Assembly: GCA_016871535.1 (NCBI GenBank) | Contig: VHCZ01000009.1 | Span: 1 to 56,599 of the forward strand | DNA from: Verrucomicrobiota bacterium | GTDB lineage: Bacteria > Verrucomicrobiota > Verrucomicrobiia > Limisphaerales > SIBE01 | Reading direction: 5' to 3' | Length of the DNA stretch: 56,599 nucleotides | Part shown: one piece after another, positions 40,196 to 48,529 of the stretch | Layout of the letters: each line of letters begins with the position of its first letter | How positions within the stretch are numbered: the stretch's first letter is position 1 | The notes under the pieces: generated by a model | Databases searched by the model: none | Told to the model about the DNA's origin: nothing | The model's input: the letters and a program-made list of their open reading frames with translations, nothing else | Translations under genes and position numbers: made by a program

Positions 40196-40999
40196 ATGAA
40201 TACACACGATTCCAATGCCACCATGGCGGTCTTTCTCGATCTTGAAAATATCGCGCTGGGCGCGCGCGACGCGCATTACCCGCGGTTCGATATTCAGAAA
40301 ATTCTCGAACGCCTCCTCGTCAAAGGCCACATCGTCGTCAAAAAGGCGTACTGCGATTTCGATCGCTACAAGGAATTCAAACGCGACCTGCACGAAGCCG
40401 CCTTTGAACTCATCGAGATTCCCCATGTGCGGCAGTCCGGCAAGAACTCCGCCGACATCCGCATGGTGGTCGATGCGCTCGACCTCTGCTACACCAAGAG
40501 CCATGTCGATACGTTCGTGATCATCAGTGGCGACTCGGATTTCTCGCCGCTCGTCAGCAAATTGCGCGAGAACGCCAAAACCGTGATCGGCGCCGGCGTC
40601 AAAAATTCGACGTCGGATTTGTTCATCAATAATTGCGACGAATTCCTGTACTACGACGACATGGTGCGCGCCAAGCCCTCCAAAGCGCGGCAAAAAGCCG
40701 CGGCGAGCCCCCCGGCGGCGAAGCCCGCGGAAGGGGAGAATAAAGGACCTTCTCTCGAAAAGGCGTTCGACCTGGTCGCCGAAACTCTGGAAGCTCTCAC
40801 CGAGGAACGCGACGAAGATGAAACGGTTTGGGGTTCCATGATCAAACAGGCTATCAAACGCCGCAATCCCGGTTTCAACGAGCGCGCCTACGGATTTCGT
40901 TCCTTCAACGAACTGCTCTTGGAGGCGCAGAAGCGCGGTCTCGTGAAGCTGGAAGCCGACGAGAAATCCGGCGGTTACACGGTGCACGCGGTGAATTGA
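40196..40999 (+). CDS. NYN-domain ribonuclease-like protein with C-terminal OST-HTH/LOTUS domain
   Basis: 267-aa protein. The NYN (PIN-like) domain (about 8-155) has acidic residues in VFLDLENIALGA, GKNSADIRMVVDALDL and IISGDSDFSPLVSKLRE, the metal-binding positions of LabA-type proteins. A Lys/Ala/Pro linker (about 160-185) leads to an OST-HTH/LOTUS-like domain (about 195-265, with NERAYGFRSFNELLLEAQ and GGYTVH), which in other proteins binds RNA. It is expected to be a cytoplasmic RNA-processing or decay factor. ATG 40196 is the usual start; the gene follows directly after the repeat DNA. Confidence 0.88.
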   Translation: MNTHDSNATMAVFLDLENIALGARDAHYPRFDIQKILERLLVKGHIVVKKAYCDFDRYKEFKRDLHEAAFELIEIPHVRQSGKNSADIRMVVDALDLCYTKSHVDTFVIISGDSDFSPLVSKLRENAKTVIGAGVKNSTSDLFINNCDEFLYYDDMVRAKPSKARQKAAASPPAAKPAEGENKGPSLEKAFDLVAETLEALTEERDEDETVWGSMIKQAIKRRNPGFNERAYGFRSFNELLLEAQKRGLVKLEADEKSGGYTVHAVN

Positions 41000-41079: not shown

Positions 41080-41960
41080 ATGGACAGCGACCCAGGCCGG
41101 CTTCACCTCTCCTTCAAACGCCCAAGGCTGAAACTCCGCCTTTGGTTCACAAACGCGCGGCGCCTTTTCCTTGCGGCGTGCTCGCCAATCTTTCTCATGG
41201 CCTTGGTCCGCGGCGCGGAATTGACGGCCGTTTTCTCGACGGCGCCGGAATCAGTCGCGAGCGGCGGTCGCGCGACCGTCTGGCTCAACGTCCTGAATCA
41301 CTCCAACCGGGAGGTTCTGTAGACATGGCCGGCCAAGATCGATTGCCGAATCGTGTCTTCACACCCAACTCTCGACGGGGCGCTGGAACTGCGCCCCGCG
41401 GCTGATGCCGTGCAAAACGCAATCGCCGCAGGCGCGTTCGCTCGCAAAGAATATCTGCTCCAAATGCCTGCGACGTTGATGGGCCAGGTGATCGTTGAGT
41501 TCCCCGGTTTTCGCGCCAACTCGACTTGCAGGGCGGCCTTCGGCACGAGTCCAACGGCAAAGGAGGCGTGGATTCGCGCGCGCTGAACATCGCGTATGTC
41601 CGCCCAAAAATCACCTTCGGCAAAGACGAAGGCCTGCAACTGACTTTGCAGCCCCGCGCATGGATTTACGCCGGCGACCTCGACGATAATCCCGATCTGG
41701 CCGACTACCGGGGTTACGCGGACCTCCGGGCCATTGTCGGCTGGAAGCGCGGTCTGCAATTGTCTGCGCTGGGACGAATCGGCCATGACGGCGACAACGA
41801 AAGTGTGCAGTTCGATCTCACTTATCCGATGATGAAATTGATGTCCGGCAGTTTCAGTTTGTATCTCCACGCGCAGTACTTCACCGGCTACGGCGAAAGT
41901 TTGCTGCGCTACAACGAAAGAGAATCCATGTTCCGGATCGGCTTCTCGTTATACCGGTAG
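41080..41960 (+). pseudogene. decayed outer-membrane phospholipase A (OMPLA/PldA-like)
   Basis: The first part (from ATG 41080) has a signal-peptide-like N-terminus and AELTAVFSTAPESVASGGRA, then a TAG stop at 41320-41322. The same frame continues after the stop as TWPAKIDCRIVS... At about 41512-41520 the sequence jumps frame into QLDLQGGLRHESNGKGG, which holds the OMPLA active-site motif HxSNG, followed by beta-strand repeats (LTLQPRAWIYAGD, FDLTYPMM) and a terminal FRIGFSLYR as in outer-membrane barrels. The central part of the enzyme (roughly the first strands of the barrel) is missing. A nonsense mutation plus an internal frame-shifting deletion make it non-functional. An intact OMPLA hydrolyses phospholipids in the outer membrane. 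Confidence 0.8.
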
Positions 41961-42187: not shown

Positions 42188-42826
42188 CTACTTTGCTTGA
42201 GCTCGCTGAGGAGAGGGGCTGATGCCGGGTAGGACTTGCGAACTGCCCTCGGTCAGCAGAATCGCGCGGTCGCTCGCGAGGTCGGCGAATTCCTGCTGCA
42301 ATCCGCTGGGCCAGACCACGGTGAGTTGATCCACTTTGGTCGCATTACCGAGTCCCAGGTGAACGTGCGCTGGTCCTTGCGCCTTGAATCCATTTACCGG
42401 ATAAAGCTCGCGGACAATTTGTTGTCCGCCAACTTTCGCGACCAACCGCGCGCCGATGCCAAGCCTATTGCTCTTTGTTCCACGCAACGACACGCGCAGC
42501 CAGTGTGTTTTGGGAAATCGATTCTCAAAAAGGAGCAGCGGTCCGCCGCCTGCCTGTCGAACCAGCAAGTCCTCCATCCCGTCGCCCGTGAAATCGACCG
42601 CCACGACCGAGCGCCCGTCCCCTTCACTGTCGGCTGCAGTGAGCGCGGAGACATCGTAAAACGTTTCTCCTTTCGAGTTCAAAAGCAGGCGGTTCCGCTC
42701 GTAACCGCTCAAGCTTTTGCCCTGGATGTTGATTTGCCAGGGATTTTCCACCCACCAATCCTTGAGCCGTTTGTCGGCTTCCTTCGGGGCTGGGATGCAC
42801 GCCGCGCGATCGAAAGGCTGTGACAC
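42188..42826 (-). CDS. C-terminal ASPIC/UnbV part of CRTAC1 protein, after in-frame TGA
   Basis: 212 codons counted from GTG 42826. They are in the same frame as the CRTAC1 gene upstream and separated from its TGA stop by only seven sense codons (PCLWQAV), so this is the continuation of that gene and not a free-standing one. A further FG-GAP-like element is present (AVDFTGDGMEDLLVR), then the ASPIC/UnbV domain with RLGIGARLVAKVGGQQIVRE, AHVHLGLGNATKVDQLTVVW. It may be reached by reading the TGA as an amino acid, translated separately, or not translated. No Shine-Dalgarno is apparent before GTG 42826. Confidence 0.75.
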   Translation of the reverse strand: MSQPFDRAACIPAPKEADKRLKDWWVENPWQINIQGKSLSGYERNRLLLNSKGETFYDVSALTAADSEGDGRSVVAVDFTGDGMEDLLVRQAGGGPLLLFENRFPKTHWLRVSLRGTKSNRLGIGARLVAKVGGQQIVRELYPVNGFKAQGPAHVHLGLGNATKVDQLTVVWPSGLQQEFADLASDRAILLTEGSSQVLPGISPSPQRAQAK

Positions 42827-42850
42827 GACAGCCTGCCAGAGGCACGGTCA
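42815..42850 (-). promoter_or_regulatory. stem-loop downstream of the in-frame TGA (bSECIS-like candidate)
   Basis: On the coding strand TGA (42850-42848) is followed by 13 nt, then AGGCTGT-CGTGTC-ACAGCCT, a perfect 7-bp stem with a 6-nt loop (42834-42815). The loop begins 20 nt after the TGA, and its second base is G. Published bacterial SECIS models require a hairpin whose loop lies roughly 16-37 nt after UGA with a G in the first two loop bases. The fit is suggestive only; short hairpins are common in GC-rich genes. Confidence 0.35.
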
Positions 42851-44689
42851 CCCGTCCGGTTCTTCTTTGTTTATGCTGGCGAAACCGCTCGTCACGTAAA
42901 TGTCGAGAAACCCGTCGTTGTCCGCGTCGAAAAACGTCGGGCCATAAGCCCAGCCGACGGCCCGAACGCGCAGCGCCTCGCCGGCCCGCTCGAATCTCGA
43001 ACCGCCCAGATTCCGATACAACTCGCTGCCGGGGAAAAACTGTTTCATTTTCGCCATGACGTCCGGCGCGTACGCGTCCGGCGCGAGATTGCCCACAATC
43101 CGCTGCCCGGACTTGCTGTACATGTTGGCGGTGTAGATATCGATGTAACCATCGTTGTTGATATCTGCGGCCGCCAGCCCCATGGAACCGAAATCGCCGA
43201 GATCACCTTTGATCAACGGCTGCTCGGTGAAGCTTCCTTTGCCGGTGTTGACCAGGAGAATCCCGCCGCCGAATTCATTGATGACGTAAAGATCGGGAAA
43301 ACTATCGTTGTTCGCGTCCAACCACGACGCCGTGAAGCACGAGCGGCGGCCGGCTCGCGCGTTGGCGCGGTCGGACACATCCTCGAACTTCCAGTTGCCC
43401 AGGTTCCGCCAGAGCTGGTTGCCCGGCCCGCCCGGACCGTCGATCCATGAATTCTTGCCGTAGCGGCCTTTCGGTCCATAACTGCGAGCCACGTAGATAT
43501 CGATCAATCCGTCCTTGTCAAAATCGCCAACGGTGTAGCCAACGAGATAAGCCAGGCTGCCGAATCGGAGATTGCATTGCCGCGTGATCTCATCGAAGCG
43601 GCCACCGCCTCGGTTCCGGAAAACGCGATTGTCGAGAATCAAATCGGGCCAGCCGTCCTGATCGAAGTCGCCGAAAATGGCGTTGACCACGGAATGCAAC
43701 TTGTGAGGCAGGCCGGACTTCTCCGCCATCTCCACGAAATGGCCGTCCTGCATTCGCTTGAACAAGAAGACTCCGTTAATGTCCGTGATCAGCACGTCGT
43801 CCCAGCCGTCGTTGTCCACGTCCGCCAGATAAACGCCGCCGCCTACGATCGTCGCCTTCTCGACCGGATTCCTCCAGTTGTCCCAGAGCAGGTCGGCGTC
43901 GATGCCGCGCTCCTTGCCGACCTCGGCAAACAAGTCGCGGTCGGCGGATGCCTCATAGCCTTCTATGACGCGCATGGATTGAATCCAGCCCGAATCCGAG
44001 GCAATGGCATCGACGTCCGCGATGCGGGCAAAATCGATACCGAGCTTCAGGAAGATTTCCGCCGGTTTGCCGCCCGGATAGCGGCCATAAAAGCGCAGGT
44101 TCGCATTGCCTCGCCAGGCACCAGACAGATCCTCCCGGCGGACGGGAGCCAGCTCAAGGAGCTTCATTTCAAGCTGCAGGTCGCGATCGAACCGTTTGAT
44201 AAAGCCGAACAAATACGAGGCGAATTGCTCGCGAGAAACCTGCCGCGCGTCCACGGAGGATTGTTCCTTGGCTGCGGCGCGACGGACCGTCAGCGCGGTG
44301 CTGGCCGGGCTTGCTCCCTTTGCCAGGTCGAGAGTTCGGCCCTGGAAGGAGGCCGGGAAGAATTGAACGACTTTCGCGAGGTCGTTCTCGCGCAGCGCGG
44401 TTTTGAACGCAGGAAATCCTCTCTTGGACAGAGTCAGGGCGCGATGTTCGATATCCGCGAGATAGACGCGCTCCGGCTCCGCGAGTGGAAGTTCCTCGGC
44501 GACGCTCTTGCTGGCTGCGGAGCGTGGCTTGACCGCGTTCTCGGCGCAAAAAGCTTTTGGCAAGGCGCTGAACGCCAAGACCAGAGTCAAGCCGGCGAGT
44601 CTGTGCCAGCCTGGTCTCTGAAGGAGCGCAATGTTGGTCCGATGGGTCACTGGAGCGCAAATCGTATCGACCGACCTCAGGGCGAACAA
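42848..44689 (-). CDS. CRTAC1-family FG-GAP/VCBS protein, N-terminal part up to TGA
   Basis: 613 aa before an in-frame TGA. After a probable signal peptide (LAGLTLVLAFSALPKAFC, residues ~30-48) and a ~180-aa helical N-terminal region, it carries at least six calcium-binding FG-GAP/VCBS motifs: ADVDNDGWDDVLI, GDFDQDGWPDLIL, GDFDKDGLIDIYV, WLDANNDSFPDLYV, ADINNDGYIDIYT and FDADNDGFLDIYV. These form a beta-propeller in CRTAC1/integrin-like proteins. The chain ends GFASINKEEPDG-TGA, but the frame resumes with PCLWQAVVSQ and an ASPIC/UnbV domain, which normally completes this family. It is exported, and follows the copper/haem protein gene by 21 nt in the same operon. Confidence 0.85.
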   Translation of the reverse strand: MFALRSVDTICAPVTHRTNIALLQRPGWHRLAGLTLVLAFSALPKAFCAENAVKPRSAASKSVAEELPLAEPERVYLADIEHRALTLSKRGFPAFKTALRENDLAKVVQFFPASFQGRTLDLAKGASPASTALTVRRAAAKEQSSVDARQVSREQFASYLFGFIKRFDRDLQLEMKLLELAPVRREDLSGAWRGNANLRFYGRYPGGKPAEIFLKLGIDFARIADVDAIASDSGWIQSMRVIEGYEASADRDLFAEVGKERGIDADLLWDNWRNPVEKATIVGGGVYLADVDNDGWDDVLITDINGVFLFKRMQDGHFVEMAEKSGLPHKLHSVVNAIFGDFDQDGWPDLILDNRVFRNRGGGRFDEITRQCNLRFGSLAYLVGYTVGDFDKDGLIDIYVARSYGPKGRYGKNSWIDGPGGPGNQLWRNLGNWKFEDVSDRANARAGRRSCFTASWLDANNDSFPDLYVINEFGGGILLVNTGKGSFTEQPLIKGDLGDFGSMGLAAADINNDGYIDIYTANMYSKSGQRIVGNLAPDAYAPDVMAKMKQFFPGSELYRNLGGSRFERAGEALRVRAVGWAYGPTFFDADNDGFLDIYVTSGFASINKEEPDG

Positions 44690-44710: not shown

Positions 44711-46471
44711 TCACCGTGTTCTCTTGGCTCCCCTGGCTTTCAGAATCTCTTCCAGGCTCTCGCGGGAGATCGTGTCGTTGGGATTGATCGCGAGCGCACT
44801 TCGAAAGTGACTTTCTGCTTCATTGAGTTGGCCTTGTTCCAGGTGAATCAACCCCAGGTTCCCGTGCGCTTTGAAGTTCTGCGGATTGGCTCGAAGCGCG
44901 TTTCCAAAGGCCACTTTGGCCTCTGCCAGTTTCTTCTGGGTGCGCAGAAGCGATCCAAGGAAGTAATGGGCCTCGTCGAAGTCGGGCGCGTTCTCGACAG
45001 CGGCGCGCAGATAACGGAAAGCCTCGTCAAATCTCCGCTCCGACATCATCGCTTTGGCCAGTTCGGTCTGGGCCCGGCCGTCTTTTGGATTCGAGCGCAG
45101 CAAATAGGTATTATAGGCGACGGTCTCCCGGGCGACTTTGTGCTGGTAATCACGCGCCAGTGTTTCCCGGTCCTTCGCATCGCGGAGCGTGACTTGCAGC
45201 CAGAGCTCAGCCATTTCGTCCGAGGATTGCAGTCCATACTGAACGCGCCGGGGCGGCTGGTTCGGGTTGCGTGGATTTCCCAACGAATTGTCGTACACGA
45301 ACTCGATGGTCAGAGTCGTGCCCCTGGGCAAGGCGACCGGTTTGGCGTACCGATAATCCCCTTGCCAGTTGAAGTTCCATTCGCGGATCAGCAGGAGCCA
45401 CTGTTTGGCGCCGTTCGGCAACGTCGCATAGCTCTGGATTTTCTTGCCGAGGTAATGCGCGTGCGGCAGCACGGCAAGAACCTCGGCGTCCACCGGCAAT
45501 ACATAACTGTCTTTGACGGTGTAGGAATCTGCTCCGGCAGGAATGTCGATGTCGAAGGAAGTCAGCCGGATTTTGAAAGGCGTGCTGGTGGGCGGTTTGT
45601 CCGTGAAATAGAAGCCGACCGAGGATTGAACCGACTCGGGCTTGCCCGCGGGTTGCAGGTGCATTTGCAGCACCAAATCCGAGCCCTGCTCCAGTTTCCA
45701 GGCCAGCCCTTCGACGGGTTTGGCGGCGACCTTGCCAGGCTGCCAGCTCAGGAAATGGCCGTCGGGACTCTGCGCGCTGACCGGAAGGTGAATCCCGCCA
45801 AAACCGGGAGCGGCGTCCAGCGCATCCAGACGCCGCGATTCAGGCGTTGGATCAAACCGGATAAACGCGTGATGGACGACTTTGAGGTTCCCGGGGCGGA
45901 ATTCGATCCCTCGGACAAAACGAGAATTCGCGATCGGAATCGGAATGGCGAAGTTGCGATAAACATCCTGGCCTTCCGCCGGCAGCGTGTGGGCTTCTGG
46001 CATTTGCACGATCAAATCGGGTTCGCCCAGGCTCCAACCTTCAGTCCAGGTCGGAGGGCTCGGAAGATCCGAAGGCTCTCCTTCAACCGCGCCTTGGGCG
46101 ACCCATCGCTGAATCAATTCAATCTGCTCGGACTGAAGATTGCGCGCACCGAGGAAATCACCAACGCCAGGTTCGGGCAGCCACGGCGGCATGATGCGGC
46201 GCTGCGTGACATCGGCAATTTGTTTGGCCCGCTTCTGCGCATCGTGAAAGGTCAGGAGCGGAAAGGGCGCGGCCTGGTTCGGGCGATGGCAACTGGAACA
46301 GTGACTGAAAAGGATCGGAGCGATGTGTTTGTTGAAGGTCACCGGACCTTGCGGCTTGGCCGCGATGGCGTCGTTGGATCGCGTCCGTTTTGAACTAATC
46401 CAAACCACAAAAACGGCACACCCGGCGAGCAACGCGGCGAGCGAAAGCGAAAGCTTGGGGTGTCGAGTCAT
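44711..46471 (-). CDS. cytochrome c / copper type II monooxygenase-like / TPR protein
   Basis: 586-aa exported protein with a membrane anchor or signal (LAALLAGCAVFVVWI). Residues ~45-140 form a monohaem c-type domain (CSSCH, 58-62). The middle (about 160-440) resembles the copper type II, ascorbate-dependent monooxygenase fold: KVVHHAFIRF (paired His), DLVLQMHLQPAGKP and LPHAHYLGKKI (HxH) could be the two copper sites. The last ~120 residues are TPR repeats (RRFDEAFRYLRAAVENAPDF, AEAKVAFGNALRANPQN, NEAESHFRSALAINPND). The reaction is not proven. It lies between the multihaem cytochrome gene (78-nt gap) and the CRTAC1 gene (21-nt gap). Confidence 0.82.
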   Translation of the reverse strand: MTRHPKLSLSLAALLAGCAVFVVWISSKRTRSNDAIAAKPQGPVTFNKHIAPILFSHCSSCHRPNQAAPFPLLTFHDAQKRAKQIADVTQRRIMPPWLPEPGVGDFLGARNLQSEQIELIQRWVAQGAVEGEPSDLPSPPTWTEGWSLGEPDLIVQMPEAHTLPAEGQDVYRNFAIPIPIANSRFVRGIEFRPGNLKVVHHAFIRFDPTPESRRLDALDAAPGFGGIHLPVSAQSPDGHFLSWQPGKVAAKPVEGLAWKLEQGSDLVLQMHLQPAGKPESVQSSVGFYFTDKPPTSTPFKIRLTSFDIDIPAGADSYTVKDSYVLPVDAEVLAVLPHAHYLGKKIQSYATLPNGAKQWLLLIREWNFNWQGDYRYAKPVALPRGTTLTIEFVYDNSLGNPRNPNQPPRRVQYGLQSSDEMAELWLQVTLRDAKDRETLARDYQHKVARETVAYNTYLLRSNPKDGRAQTELAKAMMSERRFDEAFRYLRAAVENAPDFDEAHYFLGSLLRTQKKLAEAKVAFGNALRANPQNFKAHGNLGLIHLEQGQLNEAESHFRSALAINPNDTISRESLEEILKARGAKRTR

Positions 46472-46549: not shown

Positions 46550-48529
46550 TCACTCGATCAATTCCACCTGGCGATTGTCACGCTGCTGCAGGAGTTGGTC
46601 GATGCGCGCCCGATCCGGGTTTCCGTCCGCGTGGATTAAGACCTCCGGGCCGGTTCGGTCCAGTTTGGTCTTGTGGGTTTGTTCCCAAGATTCCAGGACG
46701 TGTTTCCGCGCGGCTGCATGATCCTGGCTCGGTCCGACATAGTCGTATTTGAGCCGATCAAAGCCGGGCAGTTGACGCAATGAACGGTAAGCGATGTAAC
46801 GGACCGCCGAGTAGGGATCAGTCAACAGTTCGGCAAGGAACGGAACAAGCCAGAGTTCCCCGGACGCTTCACGCGCCGACTTCCAGCCGAGACTCCAGGC
46901 AATGAGCGCGCGTTGAGCGGCGTCTCCGCGCAACAGCCAGAGCAGCGCGGCGGAGGTATTCGTTTCGTGTTCCCCAAGATGAAGAGGTTCCTTGCCGTAC
47001 CATTCGCTCAAATGGCGCGCGGTCCAGTCGAGCGTTTTGTCCAGATGACAGAGATTGCAGGCATTGGGGCGACCGGATTCCAGGCTGGTCTCCACGCTTG
47101 GACTGGCAATGCGATGGCTCCTGACCGCTTTGAGCAAGCCATAGGTGTCGTGCGGCATGTGGCAATTGTAGCATTGGCTGCCACTGGAACCCGGTTTGTG
47201 GTGTGTGTGCTGTTCGAGCCGGCTTCGGTAGGAGTCGTGACACTTAAAGCAAGCCTCGTTGCCGTTCATGCCCGCCGCCAACTGGTCGTCCGGCTCACTT
47301 CGGTGCATGGAATGGCAGGAAATGCAAGAAAGGTTGCCGCGTTCGTAACACGCCGATTCAACCAATCCATTGTATTCTCGCCCCGTCACACGAATCACAC
47401 CGTCCGGCCAATAGATCATGTCGAGAAATGCGCGGTCGCGCTTCAGGGTCTCCGGAAGGCGAGGCTCGGAATCGAATTTGGATGGTTGCACGACAGGCGT
47501 GAACTTCTCCAGATCGTCACCGGGGCGGTATCGGAACCCGTTCTGCAGCCAATCTTCACGATGAACGTTCCACTTGATGCTGTGGCATTGCGCGCAGACC
47601 TGCGTGGACGCCCTGGACTGAAGGCGCTCCGGGTTCACAATCGTGGGATCGCCCTGGCCTTGATGATGGACGGAGTAACGGTGCCGGGGATCGAGGTTGC
47701 GTTTGACGTGGTCTTCCGCCGGGCCGTGGCACGATTCGCACGCGATGCCAATTTCCGCCACTCGAGTGGAGTAGAGGCCGGTTCGGAGATTCTGCCTCGG
47801 CTGGCCGGTCGTGCTGTGGCACTGAATGCAGTTCAAATTCCAAATCTGAATCGGGGACGGCTGGGTCGGGTCGCGGATAAAAGTGTCCTTTCGCGGAACC
47901 CAGCGCCCCTCTTCAATAAGCCACGCGAACGGAAAAGCGAACTGCACGTTCCCGTAGCGCGAACTTGGAACCCAGTACGCCTGAAAATGGTGGGAGCCTG
48001 TGAGCAGGCTGATTCGCTTTTTGGTGCGGGGTGGATTCAGGGTTCGAGCCGGCGGGGTTTTCCGCGCGCCAGTCGCGAAATCCAATTCCGCTTTAGCCCG
48101 ATCGTGTTTCCAGTCGGGATCGACCATTTCCGCCCAGAATTCGTCGCCGTGCTGTTCCAACACGAACTTCTCTCCGTCCACTTCCAGCGTGCAGTTGAAT
48201 GGGGCCATGACACTCATCTCGGATGGTGTTTGCGTCATCGTCCGATGAAAACTTCGATGCCAGCTTTCGTACTGCTTCGGATGACAGGACTGGCATTTGT
48301 CGGAAGACACGTAGCCGGAGAACTCGCTTTGATCGGGGATGCCATTGGTAAGGGACTCTCGCGCCTGAAGCCTGGCCAAGGCGCGGCTATCCCATCTTTT
48401 GGCGGCGCCGAACATCAAACCAGCGCCCGCGATGGCGAGGCCCGCTGCCAGGATGCTTGACCTCCATGATCTCGTCAGCAACGGAACCAGGCCCGCGACC
48501 GCGATACTACAGAACAACAGCCATTCCAT
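46550..48529 (-). CDS. eight-haem c-type cytochrome
   Basis: 659-aa protein with two N-terminal transmembrane helices (about 1-18 and 25-45) followed by a periplasmic or surface domain. Eight CxxCH sites are visible in order: CQSCH (~79), CIQCH, CESCH, CAQCH, CISCH, CFKCH, CYNCH and CNLCH. The cytochrome c554/Cytochrom_C3-like arrangement and histidine-rich spacers (QHTHHKPGSSG) fit a multihaem electron carrier or reductase. The last ~150 residues are a helical, HEAT-like tail. It is the first gene of the redox operon and starts at ATG 48529, only 50 nt from the terminator of the previous gene, so its promoter must overlap the terminator or the upstream gene end, unless the terminator is leaky. 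Confidence 0.88.
   Translation of the reverse strand: MEWLLFCSIAVAGLVPLLTRSWRSSILAAGLAIAGAGLMFGAAKRWDSRALARLQARESLTNGIPDQSEFSGYVSSDKCQSCHPKQYESWHRSFHRTMTQTPSEMSVMAPFNCTLEVDGEKFVLEQHGDEFWAEMVDPDWKHDRAKAELDFATGARKTPPARTLNPPRTKKRISLLTGSHHFQAYWVPSSRYGNVQFAFPFAWLIEEGRWVPRKDTFIRDPTQPSPIQIWNLNCIQCHSTTGQPRQNLRTGLYSTRVAEIGIACESCHGPAEDHVKRNLDPRHRYSVHHQGQGDPTIVNPERLQSRASTQVCAQCHSIKWNVHREDWLQNGFRYRPGDDLEKFTPVVQPSKFDSEPRLPETLKRDRAFLDMIYWPDGVIRVTGREYNGLVESACYERGNLSCISCHSMHRSEPDDQLAAGMNGNEACFKCHDSYRSRLEQHTHHKPGSSGSQCYNCHMPHDTYGLLKAVRSHRIASPSVETSLESGRPNACNLCHLDKTLDWTARHLSEWYGKEPLHLGEHETNTSAALLWLLRGDAAQRALIAWSLGWKSAREASGELWLVPFLAELLTDPYSAVRYIAYRSLRQLPGFDRLKYDYVGPSQDHAAARKHVLESWEQTHKTKLDRTGPEVLIHADGNPDRARIDQLLQQRDNRQVELIE

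Follow-up and report, generated by a model that had tools for sequence, protein, structure and literature searches.

Comparative evidence for a selenocysteine-containing CRTAC1-like protein family in Verrucomicrobiota

Most characterised selenoproteins display a thioredoxin-like fold (PMC13188914). Bacterial redox selenoproteins with the selenocysteine (Sec, U) two residues before a cysteine include the SO_0444 family Cu/Zn efflux transporter and the thioredoxin-like selenoprotein Sec.2 (PMC13188914, Table 1), and in Proteobacteria the selenoprotein gene fdhA has been found near a Sec-insertion operon (PMC4807772). The CRTAC1/ASPIC-UnbV proteins with FG-GAP repeats (PF13517, PF07593; structure 9etn), by comparison, form a common and functionally obscure bacterial family. 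No CRTAC1, FG-GAP or ASPIC family is among the 119 families of prokaryotic selenoproteins inventoried in May 2026 (PMC13188914, Table 1), which include those of Haft and Tolstoy 2025. Likewise, no such family appears among the new ones in the relevant sections of deep-Sep (PMC12013277), and none is named in the main-text selenoprotein passages of PMC4807772 (the supplementary table of Planctomycetes candidates was not covered). Our literature search found no selenoprotein with CRTAC1, ASPIC, UnbV or FG-GAP, unpublished GenBank annotations not being covered, and the reviews searched do not mention Verrucomicrobiota.

The window studied here is the whole stretch of 56,599 nucleotides, contig C9 of a 6.67 Mb host assembly that is 97% complete. 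On its minus strand, an in-frame TGA at 42850-42848 divides a single frame into 42848-44689 and a remainder that extends to 42188, and after this TGA the frame stays open for 219 further codons before it ends in a TAG. Read through, the CRTAC1-like gene (42188..44689, minus strand) encodes 833 amino acids with Sec as residue 614 (42848..42850). FG-GAP repeats flank the TGA on both sides and the ASPIC/UnbV domain (PF07593, 42263..42460) lies downstream of it; the Pfam scores of the read-through protein (142.5, 58.5 and 61 bits, the last for ASPIC/UnbV against a cut-off of 23.4) all exceed the respective cut-offs, and no NCBIfam 20.0 model scores above its cut-off. The residues directly 3' of the TGA are Pro and then Cys, the latter (residue 616, 42842..42844) completing a U-x-C pair. 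The start of the gene is uncertain: there is no ATG, and only TTG and GTG candidates precede a signal-peptide-like stretch, which was judged by eye. The original prediction, made from the sequence alone, rested on the in-frame TGA and the open frame after it, both of which are real, and on the U-x-C motif, which holds for the window and, as a general feature, is restricted to the subfamily of the window.

The prediction also placed the gene in an operon with haem and copper proteins and noted decayed genes nearby, and both claims held in part. The upstream neighbour (44711..46471, minus strand), whose stop codon lies about 20 nt ahead of the TTG at 44689, probably shares an operon with the selenoprotein gene; a copper protein was not confirmed there, as Pfam gives TPRs only and the sequence carries a CSSCH haem motif. 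The haem part of the claim is borne out by a multihaem c-type cytochrome (46550..48529, minus strand; Paired_CXXCH_1 and Cytochrome_C7 in Pfam). A single decayed gene was seen: an outer-membrane phospholipase A1 gene (41526-41960, plus strand; PF02253, profile positions 126-257) adjoins the selenoprotein gene with only its C-terminal half open; the N-terminal half is not in frame, which indicates decay or a frameshift. Just downstream, a NYN-domain protein with an OST-HTH/LOTUS domain is encoded on the opposite strand (40196-40999, plus strand).

With the read-through protein as query, the genomes of 97 relatives yielded four homologues (35-50% identity), each with one in-frame TGA and always at the same column. 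A 54-column profile (A2), run over the order, the class and the phylum, added many further homologues, and the TGA was found at exactly this column in homologues down to ~25% identity, across the order, in other families of the class and in one genome outside the class (G445); a search of the class of G445 revealed no TGA copies besides that genome's own three. The tables hold 56 TGA rows plus 12 added later, with near-duplicates among them. To eight aligned homologues of its own subfamily with the same TGA, the window protein shows 41-53% identity. The original prediction had proposed this column as a check, and the outcome is TGA in many lineages and Cys in outgroups, together with a Glu clade and one Met.

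Several observations concern individual copies. Genome G874 harbours an unusual expansion of eight TGA-containing CRTAC1 copies (L206-L213, on contigs C46, C30, C68, C22, C5, C78, C29 and C37). Among these, the divergent copy at L211:5690 (plus strand) has a U-A-C motif (DLUACFWSTVV) and a stem of its own, GAGTAC[GGTC]GTGCTC, so that U-x-C occurs again outside the window's subfamily. In G000, only one of ~80 CRTAC1/FG-GAP-type matches has the full motif and the TGA. The TGA copy L176:6007 (G484:C19) is in short pieces and seems to be a duplicate of the L166/L167 type that has decayed. The TGA of L034, a second paralogue in the window's own genome, was rejected, being at a different column in a protein read past its own end.

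A FastTree phylogeny was built for 83 proteins; the Sec column holds TGA in 63 of its rows, Glu in 14, Cys in 5 and Met in 1, and the Sec label requires three changes as against 18 when shuffled. Sec falls into a single deep clade, in which it gave way once to Glu and once to Met, and the Cys forms (TGC or TGT, in the outgroup homologues L180, L181, L182, L218 and L219) lie outside it. Several joins in this tree are long-branch joins, and the exact history is not firm. Glu is found in a single nested clade and also in paralogues from the window's own genome. The Glu members L149-L163 and L183 have GAA or GAG at the column, often with selA still in the genome, and some of them (L149, L152) retain a FATWCPSC tail. 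Met is confined to one Acidobacteriota homologue, L047. Where dS is unsaturated, the region after the TGA has dN/dS values of 0.08-0.22, similar to those of the preceding region; comparing the window gene with L126 and L143 over its post-UGA region (42188..42847, comprising the last part of the propeller and the C-terminus) gives 0.21-0.22 at high dS. Because purifying selection acts after the TGA as it does before it, we conclude that this downstream part is both translated and functional.

Bacterial SECIS elements are generally hairpins that follow closely on the UGA and carry a G near the start of the loop, and the window gene meets this rule. Its hairpin (42815..42834, minus strand) has a perfect 7-bp stem (AGGCTGT-CGTGTC-ACAGCCT; arms 42834-42828 and 42821-42815) that starts 13 nt after the TGA, and a 6-nt loop (42827-42822) that starts 20 nt after it and has G as second base. 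The predicted stem, loop position and loop G have thus held, and the structure is above chance and recurs in the subfamily: the inner 6 bp arise in 1.25% of synonymous recodings, and all nine other members have the same TGA and stem position. Within this subfamily, the synonymous codons +5 to +8 agree in every comparison (100%), as against an identity of 45% ahead of the TGA and 42% past the hairpin; covariation is limited to one compensatory pair (C-G/U-A).

The stem of the larger subfamily is 6 bp long, begins 11 nt past the TGA and encloses a loop of 5 nt, mostly GGTCG or GGTCA. Among 32 distinct sequences, 97.9% of cells are paired and three pairs change on both sides, and the covariation of 0.421 (0.152 in shuffled data) was not reached in any of 500 shuffles; three members added later have mispaired stem positions. 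Stems were present in 30/30 distinct members tested, and in the f21 group stem and protein change together (RQVV to RRVT). The evidence from the stem is weak alone in the SNLWRT subgroup (27% by chance). The Glu clade has ATG or ACG in place of the GGTC-type loop, the stem being kept in several members, and the Cys forms have no such hairpin. Folding energy of the window copy is unremarkable (z -0.30), an Rfam search gave no match at the hairpin site, and comparison of minimum free energies with synonymous recodings did not separate TGA members from Glu members. Since the free-energy comparison did not discriminate, we relied on exact-register stems, covariation and synonymous-site conservation, and on the latter two grounds the hairpin behaves as a SECIS.

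The original prediction had noted that the window lacks sel genes, which is correct, and had proposed a genome-wide search, in which tRNA-Sec, selA, selB and selD were all found. The host tRNA-Sec (68.6 bits, tca anticodon) is supported by ARAGORN, selA (391 bits) and selB (323 bits) are adjacent on contig C102, and selD (370 bits) contains an in-frame TGA of its own at the active site CAGUASK and therefore serves as an internal positive control. As the host carries these genes on contigs other than the window's, their absence from the window is no evidence against Sec. In two families of the order, the TGA gene is located 0.6-5 kb from selB, selD or selA: in f2 it is followed by selD, selA and selB, and three copies in f25 have selB ~0.65 kb downstream and selA and selD close by. 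These clusters were identified from selA coordinates and from reading SelD- and SelB-like sequences.

Within the order, 25 of 32 TGA genomes and 66 of the remaining 288 have selA (p = 9e-10, odds ratio 12), a p value that overstates independence because the genomes are related by ancestry. Six of the seven TGA genomes without detected selA belong to one genus of f2, and their gene-bearing contigs end close to the position of the sel cluster in relatives; in one f2 genome without detected selA (G008), selD still stands beside the TGA gene. The seventh, G488, is 85% complete, and its TGA copies are the nearest relatives of the window's. Outside the class, G445 with its three TGA copies has a true selB (326.8 bits). 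Neither of the two Cys-type genomes tested (G386 and G435) has a true selB, only matches at the level of EF-Tu.

An AlphaFold2 model based on 29 aligned read-through sequences (mean pLDDT 83, pTM 0.87) has murine CRTAC1 (9etn) as its closest fold, ranked first by both Foldseek and VIA-align (Z 36.1 over 449 residues, 21% identity). In the model, Sec (model residue 566) is predicted at the start of a short helix (566-574) within an insertion of the propeller, with a poorly predicted loop after the helix. Helix N-termini are a typical place for a reactive selenol. U-[PS]-C occurs in 10/10 members of the window's subfamily and is not general outside it. The larger subfamily is without Cys at U+2 and has a fused WCxxC thioredoxin-like domain, which nearly all long members carry downstream of the UGA, mostly 265-280 residues on, followed by TPRs; this domain is absent from the window protein, whose C-terminus lies 219 amino acids past Sec. 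We favour an exported redox selenoprotein, and the inference that Sec is the redox or catalytic residue is one towards which we lean only slightly, in the absence of protein-level data.

Could the TGA be a chance stop, i.e. a nonsense mutation in a pseudogene or a sequencing error? The decayed phospholipase gene nearby speaks for it, as does the fact that a single base change suffices to create a TGA. Against it stand the purifying selection on the region after the TGA and synonymous sites that are frozen only in the hairpin; moreover, because dozens of independent assemblies share the same TGA, a read error or fresh mutation, a check likewise suggested by the original prediction, is excluded. 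This reading is as good as ruled out, and at the level of the family it is refuted. Alternatively, the UGA might be read through without Sec, either by a near-cognate tRNA or as programmed partial read-through giving two products. Some termination is usual at Sec-UGA codons, and a short product is possible too. This explanation is nevertheless highly improbable in view of the linkage and co-occurrence with sel genes, the exchange of Sec and Cys at the column, the hairpin at the bSECIS position and the use of TGA as the ordinary terminal stop for many of the same genes in these genomes.

A third reading accepts Sec and regards it as a metal ligand or structural residue instead of a redox catalyst. 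The replacements Cys, Glu and Met are all potential metal ligands, the Glu clade and the Met homologue are unusual for a catalytic redox Sec, and the neighbours include haem proteins. Against this reading stand the fused WCxxC thioredoxin-like domain of the larger subfamily, the U-x-C pair shared by the window's subfamily, the position of Sec at a helix start and the tail of the Met homologue, which is without WCxxC. We regard it as the less likely view, and with the Glu and Met forms in mind a role as metal ligand remains conceivable.

We thus return to Sec insertion at UGA 42850-42848 in an exported protein of the CRTAC1 fold, which we consider highly probable in spite of the lack of protein-level or selenium data. 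Comparison supports it by a conserved Sec-type UGA, constraint on the SECIS and linkage to sel genes. In substance the original prediction of a selenoprotein is upheld; proof at the protein level is missing. Under this explanation, the hairpin at 42834-42815 would direct the ribosome, with tRNA-Sec and SelB, to place Sec at the UGA, and the product would be an exported selenoprotein with a CRTAC1/ASPIC-UnbV beta-propeller fold; without Sec insertion the protein would lack the ASPIC domain and the last part of the propeller. The Cys at U+2 may act as resolving partner in the window's subfamily; recycling of the selenol in the larger subfamily may fall to the TlpA/ResA-like thioredoxin domain (WCxxC) fused there. 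A bolder reading is that of a large exported selenoenzyme family with the CRTAC1 beta-propeller as catalytic scaffold, a resolving Cys or fused thioredoxin domain, and an expansion to eight Sec copies in a single genome, which would go far to explain the persistence of the Sec trait in several Verrucomicrobiota lineages; we offer it tentatively, as it falls a little short of being the more probable view.

The window gene and its many relatives in Verrucomicrobiota very probably constitute a selenoprotein family outside the 2026 inventory. Sec in an FG-GAP/ASPIC propeller would give this family a testable chemistry and offers a reason for the use of Sec in Verrucomicrobiota, and the natural Sec, Cys, Glu and Met variants are a means to ask what Sec contributes; annotation that stops at the TGA appears to truncate the whole family. 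With known CRTAC1 proteins, the family shares the domain order, the propeller fold and the ASPIC domain, and it differs from them by Sec in the propeller insertion, no selenoprotein of this fold being represented in PMC13188914. Like the SO_0444 family transporter and Sec.2, the window protein is UGA-decoded with U two residues before Cys, but the domains are unrelated. A TlpA/ResA-type domain (AhpC-TSA/Redoxin in Pfam) with WCxxC follows ASPIC in the larger subfamily; it does not occur in the window's protein, and Sec lies outside it. Finally, as with fdhA in Proteobacteria, a selenoprotein gene is found near sel genes, but in two families of this order that neighbour encodes a protein of the CRTAC1 type.
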